64,000 nucleotides of DNA from Williamsia deligens (GTDB taxonomy: Bacteria > Actinomycetota > Actinomycetes > Mycobacteriales > Mycobacteriaceae), in assembly GCF_024171765.1 (NCBI RefSeq), contig NZ_JAMTCI010000001.1:2652796-2716795 (forward strand). The letters are read 5' to 3'. A model generated the notes under the pieces. That model was not told the DNA's origin. It was given only the letters and a program-made list of their open reading frames with translations, and searched no databases. The position numbers were made by a program, and so were the translations under genes. Below, in pieces: positions 44,501 through 51,313 of the stretch; the first letter of the stretch is position 1; each line of letters opens with the position of its first letter.

Positions 44501-47500
44501 GCGACGATCCCCGCCCGCGTGGCCGAGGCCGTCGAGACGGTGGCGCGGGACCACGGCACGACGCCGTTCATGGTGCTGCATGCGGCGCTCGCCGTCCTGA
44601 TCCATCGCCTCGCCGGTACCGACGACGTCGTCGTCTCCACCGCGGTGGCCGGTCGAGGGCGAGCCGAACTGGACGACCTCGTCGGGATGTTCGTGAACAC
44701 CCTCGTCCTGCGCACACCGGTGGTCGGCGCGCACACCTTCGCCGACGTCCTCGCCGAGGTGCGTCGTGTCGACCTCGACGCCCTCGCCCACGCGGAGGTC
44801 CCGTTCGAGGACATCGTCGACAGGGTCGGCGCCGTACGGTCCGAGGCGTTCGCGCCGCTGTCGCAGATCCAGCTGACCGTCGCCGACACCGCCGCGACCC
44901 CGACGACGATGCCGAACGTCGAGGTGATCGAGGCACCCACCACGACGACCCCGGTGGACCTCACCCTCGCCGTGGCGACCGCTCCGGCCGGCGACTGGCG
45001 CGTCGGGGTGGTGCACGCGCTCGACCTGTTCGACCTCGACACCGCCGACCGCCTGACCCGCCGATGGATCGCGCTGCTCGAGCGACTCGTCACCGCACCG
45101 GACGCGGTCGTCGGTGACGTCGACATCCTGCTCGACGGGGAGAGTGCCGCCGCCGTTCCCGCAGGTGTGCCCGGGCCGGATCCGCTGCTGCTGCCCGACG
45201 TCCTCGCCGCGGCCGCGATCCGTGACCCCGATGCCCCTGCGGTCCTCGACGCCGGCGTGCTGTGGACCCACCGCGAGATCGATGCGGTCAGCTCGGTGCT
45301 CGCCCGCGATCTGATCGCGCGGGGGATAGGCCCGGAGGACGTCGTCGTCAGCGCCCTCCCGCGGACCGCGATCGTGCAGCTGGCCGTCTGGGCGGTGGCG
45401 AAGGCCGGTGCCGTGTACTGCCCGATCGACCCGCGCCACCCCGAGAAGCGCATCCGGACCGTCGTCGCGAGCAGTGGTGCCGTTCTCGCGCTGCGCGATC
45501 CGTCGGTGCAGCTCGGCTCGACCGTCGACGACCTCGTCCTCGACGTTGCGGCCGTCGAGGAGCTCCGTCGTCGCGGCGCCGAGCACCCCGACCTCGCGGC
45601 GCCGATCGGCGACGACGACCGCGTCCGTCCGGTCCGAGACCACAACGGCGCCTACCTGATCCACACCTCCGGCTCGACCGGCGCACCCAAGGGTGTCCTC
45701 GTCACCCACACCGGACTCGCCGGGATCGCCGTGACACTGCGCGATCGCCACGGCGTCGACGACTCCACACGGTGGCTGGGCATCAGCTCGCCGGCCTTCG
45801 ACGTCGCGATGCTCGAGGTGATGGGCGCCTACACCGCGGGCGGCGCGATGGTGGTCACCCCGCCCGCGGTCATCGGCGGCGACGAACTCGCCGCATGGAT
45901 CTCCGCGACAGCACCCACCCACACCGCGATCGTCACCAGTGTCCTGGCGTCCCTACGGGATCCGGCCCGCATCCCCATCACCCATCTCCTGGTCGGTGGT
46001 GAGGCCGTGCCCGACGCGGAGATGCGTCGCTGGGCCGGTGACCGCGCCTTCTACGACTCGTACGGACCCACCGAGACGACGATGGCGTGTCTCACGTCTA
46101 CCCCGGCCGACCCCGGATCGTCGGTCCCGCTGGGTCTTCCGATGCCGGGATCGACCGTCGTCGTGCTCGACAGCCGCCTGCGACCGGTTCCCGACGGCGT
46201 CCGCGGCGAGCTCTACGTGATCGGAGACTGCCTCGCCCGCGGCTACCACGATCGCGCCGACCTCACCTCCGACCGATTCGTCGCCTGCCCGTTCGGACCG
46301 CCCGGATCTCGGATGTACCGCACCGGCGACCTGGTCCGGCGCCGCGTCGACGGGTCCCTGTACTCCGACGGGCGCACGGACCACCAGGTCAAGATGCGCG
46401 GTCTGCGTATCGAACTCGGCGAGGTGGAGGCCGCACTGACGGCACATCCGCGGGTCGCCGCGGCCGGGGTGATCGGCGTCGGCGATCCCGTCACCGCGCT
46501 CGCCGGGTTCGTCGAGGCCACCGGACCGCTCACCACCGACGACCTCCGCGCCCACCTCGTCGAGACACTGCCCGCACATCTGGTCCCCGCCACCCTGACC
46601 GTCCTGCCCGCCCTGCCGCGCACCCCCGTCGGCAAGATCGACCGCGCGGCACTGCCGGCGTCGCCCGGTGCGACGCCTGCCGGCCCGCCGCCGGCCGCGG
46701 TCCGACCGCTCGACGACGACCTCGACCGGCGCGTCGCCACACTGGTCGCCGAGGTGACCGGTACCGATCCCGGCGCCGTGGGACCCGACCGCGACTTCTT
46801 CGCGCTCGGCGGCACGTCGTTGTCGGCGACGCGGCTGCTCGCCCGGATCGCCGACGACCTCGGCGTCGCGGTCGGGGTGCGCGACGTGTTCGACGCACCC
46901 ACGATCGGCGGGCTCGCCGCGCGGATCCGGAGCCTCCCCGCGAGTGCCGGGCCACGCCCCGTCCCTGACGCCGCACGGCCCGAACACATCCCGCTGTCGA
47001 TTGCCCAGGAACGCATCTGGTTCCTCAACCAGGTCGACCCCGACTCGACCGCCTACACGATCCCGATCGCCGTGCGCCTGCGCGGCCGACTCGACGTCGA
47101 CGCCCTGCAGAGTGCGGTCGGTGACGTCGTCGCGCGCCACGAGATCCTGCGGACCGTCTTCCCGTCGGCGGCGGGCGAGCCGTACCAACGCATCCTCGAC
47201 GCCGCCGATCCCGCAGCGGTCCCCGGCGTCGAGGTCGTCGACAGCGTCGACGCGGACCCCACAGGGGACGTGCGCGTCGCCGTCGCGCCGATCGCGCGTT
47301 TCGACGTCACCCGGGATCTGCCGATGCGGGTTCGGCTGATCCGTCGGGCCGACGACGACTGGCTGATCGCCCTCGTCGCCCATCACATCGCCGTGGACGG
47401 ACAGTCCGCCCGGCCGTTGATCGGCGACCTCGTCGCCGCCTACACGGCGCGCGCAGCAGGCCGCGCGCCGCTCTTCGTGCCTCTGCCCCTGCAGTTCGCC

Positions 47501-51313: not shown

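Follow-up and report, generated by a model that had tools for sequence, protein, structure and literature searches.

The window, by which we mean the whole 64,000-nucleotide stretch of Williamsia deligens DNA analyzed here, encodes a 14-module NRPS line that begins in ORF1 and continues in a second reading unit (Table 1). Using domain HMMs built from the window plus its relatives (denoted G001 to G007), we read modules 1-5 as C1-A1-T1, C2-A2-T2, C3-A3-T3, C4-A4-T4 and C5-A5-T5-E, modules 6-9 as C6-A6-T6, C7-(degenerate A7)-T7, C8-A8-T8 and C9-A9-T9-E, and modules 10-14 as C10-A10-T10, C11-A11-T11, C12-A12-T12, C13-T13 and C14-(remnant)-T14-TE. From its first condensation domain, the line would make a product of the lipopeptide type. 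A small frame shift inside T4 near position 18985, relative to G002 and G006, splits the second unit in the window. The shift could be an error of the assembly; were it real, the line would be broken in the window's strain, and the pattern found in G002 and G006 would still stand.

Table 1. Features of the 14-module line, with positions counted from the first letter of the window.
Feature	Position	Strand	Remarks
NRPS gene 1 (ORF1): C1 (putatively starter-like)-A1-T1-C2-A2-T2-C3	5777..13894	+	
Second NRPS unit, A3 to TE	13891..51313	+	single open frame in G002, G006, G001, G007
A6, Ser-type code DVWHISLID; proposed donor for T7	25262..26683	+	HMM and code extraction
C7, third A-less module, HHIASDG	27014..28339	+	HMM and motif
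Degenerate A7, A_sub gone, predicted A-core fold	28436..29236	+	HMM, sequence and model
T7, carrier serine intact	29447..29635	+	HMM and motif
A10, complete in the window, code DVPHWSTVE	38870..40333	+	HMM and code
A11, Ser-type code DVWHVSLVD; candidate loader of T10 in G002/G006	42113..43522	+	
A12 (core plus sub), the final complete A of the line, code DVLALGSMA; possible donor for T13/T14	45221..46636	+	
C13, condensation domain, HHIAVDG intact	46991..48322	+	Pfam, HMM and motif
C13-T13 linker, 39 aa, site of the missing A13	48323..48439	+	complete A13 here in G002, G006
T13, GGTS carrier serine intact	48440..48631	+	HMM and motif
C14, HHIAGDA (ancestral variant)	48689..49972	+	HMM and motif
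A14 remnant, ~70 aa (motifs A6, A7, start of A8)	50033..50242	+	HMM and sequence; model strands of low confidence
T14, GGTS carrier serine intact	50324..50512	+	HMM and motif
TE, releasing thioesterase domain	50570..51247	+	Pfam and HMM

Directly upstream of ORF1 lie ribosomal protein genes (L3, L4, L23, L2, S19, L22, S3, L16, S17; window 358-5390). They separate it from another NRPS of nine modules and 11,378 aa (G000:C1:2612900-2647033), which is found about 11 kb upstream of ORF1 and ends in an E domain without a TE. We considered whether this NRPS and the 14-module line form a single line and rejected the idea, as C1 of ORF1 groups with C1 of the upstream line (support 100/100) rather than with C domains located after an E domain. 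Right after the TE, at 51362-52885, the window encodes a stand-alone condensation-like protein of 507 aa, and in G001, G005 and G007 the line is followed by frames of 443-464 aa that match the C-domain model.

The preliminary description of this DNA had the line end in C13-T13-C14-(A remnant)-T14-TE, with no complete A domain between 46980 and 50520, and both Pfam and our custom HMMs bear this out. Profile-HMM annotation of the line end recovered Condensation, PP-binding and Thioesterase domains and no complete A domain in these intervals. Across 46403-51313, Pfam reported Condensation (two stretches), PP-binding (three), Thioesterase, a weak Abhydrolase_1 and a single AMP-binding_C, which belongs to module 12; AMP-binding (PF00501) gave no match there at E-values up to 1 with the HMMER filters on. 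As described, module 13 has no A domain: C13 and T13 lie 39 aa apart, compared with 544-550 aa in the three relatives G002, G006 and G001, where A13 is present. Module 14 keeps a fragment comprising motifs A6 and A7 and the first residues of motif A8, about 70 residues long rather than the 75 or so first given. By eye it runs from VVLDRRLRPV to EILGRE, and the HMM scan places it at 50021-50104 (positions 310-337 of the 342 in the HMM); its structural model is of low confidence (pLDDT blocks mostly 43-68). Because the remnant-bearing C14-T14 interval is 59-67% identical among three species with the frame open, chance or assembly collapse is an unlikely explanation. The absence of A13 was seen in one genome, that of the window.

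The carrier serines of T13 and T14 are intact (both GGTS), again as described. The unusual HHIAGDA motif of C14 is likewise present as first reported, but it is not tied to the loss of the A domain. It also occurs in G007, and G001 has HHIAADA; since A14 is complete in both of these genomes, HHIAGDA is ancestral and not a sign of decay.

The line also contains a third A-less module, module 7, which the preliminary description did not include. Its C-T interval spans 348-369 aa in the window, G002 and G006, and TSGSTG, YGPTE, YRTGD and the C-terminal subdomain are all gone. The degenerate A7 is nevertheless predicted to adopt an A-core fold: a model built from 11 window sequences reached a mean pLDDT of 74, and the third-ranked solved match was the Ser-bound A domain of FscH. 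A13 of the window and A10 of G002 and G006, for their part, are missing over the whole stretch between the C-A and A-T linkers, with 38-39 aa left. Exact repeats between the window's A13 junction (48250-48480) and the rest of the window reach at most 16 bases, the longest having its other copy at 62713, outside the NRPS; the best match within the NRPS lines covers about 30 bases at 83%. No exact word longer than 9 bases was shared between this junction and the compared ends of A13 in G002 and G006.

Eight genomes were covered in the genus search, and the line was found in six: the window's genome, G001, G002, G005, G006 and G007. In G003 and G004, a single query gave only C-domain matches, at 43-44% identity. 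Among named records that encode the query, the closest belong to Williamsia serinedens DSM 45037 and to an uncultured Williamsia, with 74% identity in the best segment. G001 and G007 carry the same 14-module line with a complete A domain in all 14 modules. In G005 the line is split across contigs; A1-A11 and A14 are complete, A12 is cut by a contig end and module 13 is out of view. The degenerate A7 and the A14 remnant are common to the window, G002 (W. serinedens) and G006, whereas A13 is missing in the window alone (complete in G002 and G006) and A10 in G002 and G006 alone (complete in the window). Relatives with full C-A-T modules had been named beforehand as a possible sign that the window's copy is a damaged allele. 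Such relatives exist, but the A7 and A14 losses are common to three species and their C and T domains are under purifying selection, so the A-less condition looks like an evolved state rather than a single damaged allele.

C domains 6-14 of the window and G002 form one-to-one pairs in the tree in nine of nine cases (support 92/93 for C10 and at least 97/94 for the rest), which identifies them as the same modules differing in A content. In the comparison with G001, 8 of the 14 modules pair directly in the C tree (1-6, 9 and 14) and the remaining ones were matched by order. Domains 6/10, 7/11, 8/12 and 9/13 intermix between the window and G001, the trace of an old four-module block duplication with exchange between the copies. 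C-domain trees and specificity codes together likewise relate modules 5-8 to modules 9-12 as a duplicated four-module block. In the A tree, A13 of G002 groups with A13 of G001 and G007 (98/97), a placement that the program flagged as a long branch. Two other readings of this tree were dropped. The window's A10 as a transposed A13 is one: it is 51% identical to A13 of G002 and 53% to A10 of G001, and its place in the tree is not settled. The other took the long branches W_m10 and G2_m13 as acceleration; neither has a close tree partner to break the stem.

Synonymous divergence varies along the line. Between G002 and G006, most blocks of modules 3-7 have a dS of 0.44-0.77, with lower values (0.22-0.43) in three early blocks; over modules 8-13, approximately residues 5,560 to 11,820 of the long protein, dS falls about threefold to 0.15-0.31, and in module 14 it is back at 0.55-0.66. 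Such a dip marks a recently exchanged recombination tract of about 19 kb, which carries the A10-less module; the A7 and A14 remnants fall outside it. The distribution of the losses among the relatives suggests that A domains were lost stepwise, one after another, with the rest of each unit intact.

The C and T domains left without an A partner keep their active motifs. The window, G002 and G006 all have HHIASDG in C7, HHIAGDA in C14 and the carrier serines; C10 of G002 and G006 reads HHLVLDG and C13 of the window HHIAVDG, and T7, T13 and T14 retain the serine motif. Between G002 and G006, dN/dS was 0.30 for C7, 0.17 for C10 and 0.21 for C14 (mean 0.22, three modules), and 0.28 for T7, 0.27 for T10 and 0.17 for T14 (mean 0.24, three modules), as against means of 0.26 (C) and 0.25 (T) over 11 A-bearing modules each. 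The difference was not significant (Mann-Whitney p 0.28 for C and 0.88 for T), in a comparison of few modules with little power. For the window and G002, whose synonymous divergence is high and whose ratios are rough, identities were compared: 70.0% for C and 73.8% for T in A-less modules (four each) and 71.7% for C (10) and 75.9% for T (9) in A-bearing modules, with no difference among these few modules (p 0.64 and 1.0) and with the T domain of module 4 left out because of the frame shift. At the sequence level, this shows no large relaxation of C and T in the A-less modules, rather than equality with the others, because few modules were compared.

The measure is able to detect relaxation, since between G002 and G006 the A7 interval (0.38-0.55), the A14 interval (0.35-0.46) and the C10-T10 linker (1.05, 38 codons) all exceed the intact C-T intervals (0.17-0.34 in the 10 modules giving a value; module 3 gave none). 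C10 and T10 have had less time to show relaxation, because modules 8-13 of G002 and G006 lie in the recently exchanged tract. The C10 branch is 0.32 long in G002 and 0.22 in the window, and in most modules the G002 branch is the longer one. Constraint on C14 is strong, and for C14 to carry out condensation T14 must be charged. The preliminary description had proposed that T13 and T14 are loaded from elsewhere, which intact and constrained C13, T13, C14 and T14 would fit.

These observations can be explained if the A domains of modules 7, 13 and 14 were excised in frame from complete C-A-T modules, the C and T domains stayed in use, and each A-less carrier is now loaded by an A domain that belongs to some other module in the line, an explanation to which we give about an even chance. 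The losses themselves, their shared or lineage-specific distribution, the intact motifs and the constraint on C and T can be read from the genomes; the charging by another module is what we infer from them. Most plausibly A6, of Ser type, would serve T7, whose A domain in relatives is also of Ser type; for T13 and T14 the donor would be A12 or a Ser-type A domain of the line, and the chain length would stay 14. The main rival is module skipping: the growing chain would pass over or through modules 7, 13 and 14 without gaining a residue, and the released peptide would have 11 residues. Deletion of A6 from plipastatin synthetase led to skipping and deletion of A7 to truncation, not to reloading, and the same paper names myxochromide S as a case with a skipped module (PMC5984369); this speaks for skipping and counts against charging from another module. 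T14, which stands beside the TE, would moreover be needed in any case. However, C7, C14, T7 and T14 keep active motifs and constraint though the A7 and A14 losses are common to three diverged species, a C domain that is bypassed would be expected to show the relaxation seen in the A remnants, and T7, T13 and T14 keep their serines. We consider skipping less likely than not, though far from negligible.

Which A domain could act as donor was approached through the specificity codes, extracted at what we take to be the code positions. In G001, A7 and A10 both read DVWHFSLVD, a Ser code, A7 having the same code as its neighbor A6 and A10 the same as its neighbor A11, both of Ser type. Because of this same Ser-type code, A6 serving T7 and A11 serving T10 (in G002 and G006) would leave the residue unchanged. 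A13 and A14 of G001 read DVGHLSLVE and DVFMGAWIT; in the relatives both have codes unlike that of their neighbor A12, so that T13 and T14 lack a same-code neighbor and loading by A12 would alter the product. A12 is a possible donor to T13 and T14, and all three candidates (A6, A11 and A12) are complete in the window. The same-code pattern covers two of the four lost A domains, and this, with the difference of the A13 and A14 codes from A12, counts against charging from within the line. As a significant pattern, specificity redundancy was rejected (two of four lost A domains beside a same-code A, chance P 0.31).

Alternatively, the carriers could be loaded in trans, the loader being either a free-standing A or A-T protein or an A domain from one of the genome's other NRPSs; syringomycin, ramoplanin and WS9326A are models for this. 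The C-T-TE ending is the arrangement of SyrE (PMC8949500), and the genome is not short of A domains: TIGR01733 gave 35 matches over its cut-off, 34 of them in five large NRPS lines (11 in the 14-module line and 23 in the other four) and one in an A-T-hexapeptide protein, with a further 30 matches below the cut-off outside the NRPS lines. The single over-cut-off match outside the large lines has a similar-sized frame hit in G001, which has all its A domains. Two of the 30 weaker matches were opened singly, L126 (A-T-TE) and L127 (acyl-CoA-synthetase-like). L126 does not track the A-less state, since it has no match in G006 at E 1e-100, is 42% identical in G002 and about 50% in G001, G005 and G007. 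A Ser code was absent from the A-T-hexapeptide protein, L126 and L127. Closer to the line, the 16 flanking window ORFs that were scanned included no gene with an A domain, a set without the ORFs at 1-359, 55056-55322 and 63103-63882 and the antisense frame 14176-18744. The free A protein proposed earlier as the loader of T13 and T14 thus did not emerge: in the TIGR01733 genome search, with two of the 30 weak matches opened, the L126 comparison across relatives and the scan of 16 window ORFs, we found no NRPS-type donor tied to the A-less state. We regard trans loading as improbable. Because no free A protein was found, the A domain of another module in the same line would be the most economical donor.

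Finally, the line could be decaying and making nothing in the window's strain, the A losses being early steps. The loss of three A domains and the frame shift inside T4 of the window assembly would agree with this. Against it, about 10,700 codons are still open, C and T constraint is like that of other modules, and A13 of G002 and G006 has a dN/dS of 0.20; the frame is unbroken in G002, G006, G001 and G007, and the T4 shift may be an assembly error. Decay seems to us very improbable.

A-less modules and the sharing of A domains are already known, and the unusual part here is a bacterial comparative series within one genus. A close parallel is found in the fungal ferrichrome synthetases (SidC/NPS2, sib1), for which differential A loss from a complete-module ancestor was inferred in 2008: a different single A was lost per lineage, degenerate A domains occur as intermediates, C and T are kept, and the remaining A domains were proposed to charge several carriers (PMC2644324). 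The Williamsia line has the same features, namely one-to-one C orthologs (nine of nine between the window and G002), loss of A13 in one species against A10 in others, and A7 and A14 as intermediates. It does not belong to the ferrichrome family itself, being a bacterial 14-module line of C-A-T order with a TE and losses between congeneric species, whereas the ferrichrome synthetases are fungal, derive from a hexamodular ancestor, have A-T-C order and make a siderophore.

Other known systems resemble single modules. In capreomycin biosynthesis, CmnA-A1 loads the A-less C-T module CmnI, as shown in vitro and in E. coli (PMC12400406). The A-less modules described here match CmnI and its viomycin counterpart VioI in having C and T with active motifs and no A, and a CmnI structure (9uay_A) ranked 14 among the fold matches of the C14-T14 model. 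CmnI and VioI are separate A-less proteins, whereas the window's A-less modules are internal and terminal parts of one giant protein, with loading from within the line as our proposal. The mannopeptimycin NRPS has a C-A-T-C-T arrangement in which one A is said to supply two adjacent carriers in cis; the passage describing it covers one A-less module and no comparative series (PMC8949500), unlike the several modules and the series seen here. SyrE (C-T-TE) with SyrB1, ramoplanin and WS9326A resemble the window's line end in having a terminal C-T-TE or C-T modules in the main line, but these rely on dedicated trans A proteins (PMC8949500, PMC7539972), and none was found for the window's line in the searches described above. 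Yersiniabactin, the precedent first invoked for one A serving several carriers, is mentioned in PMC7539972 and PMC12400406. The plipastatin A6 deletion strain and myxochromide S, whose A-less or inactive module likewise lies within a line, skip modules (PMC5984369), whereas here C and T are under purifying selection. Among 75 loci chosen by similarity, 7 of 210 C domains followed by A or T ran directly into T, a proportion that is not a base rate; two of the seven are orthologs from this line and the other five belong to C-T-C arrangements that open a frame in Rhodococcus or Prescottella. In myxochromide S the carrier of the skipped module is reportedly inactive; here T7, T13 and T14 keep the serine motif. 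Among the open-access titles and abstract beginnings listed, we found no report of a Williamsia NRPS line or of stepwise A loss in a bacterial line.

The original observation holds and is somewhat stronger than first claimed, in that the sequences point to lineage-specific A loss with retained and constrained C-T pairs. A more far-reaching proposition, which we put forward tentatively and consider rather doubtful, is that the series has been caught in the act: A domains would be shed singly between sister species while all 14 C-T pairs and the chain length are kept, since A domains would be shared across non-cognate carriers, with the losses of A10 and A13 partly interchangeable and the A10-less version spread from species to species by homologous recombination over about 19 kb. 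Where engineers' clean excision of an A domain with retention of the C-T pair gave skipping or truncation, evolution has made such excisions here, with sister species differing in the position, and further species that retain the complete line provide a natural control. How far A domains reach over foreign carriers, and whether modules are reloaded or skipped, can be tested by comparing the products of congeneric strains. For at least three positions, the product of the line cannot be predicted by colinearity. A different NRPS of the same genome, L129 (G000:C1:2404000-2423900; 5949 aa), whose counterpart in G002 is L150, has an A-less C-T fifth module in both species; the first A domain of these NRPSs has an N-terminal part that was not matched.
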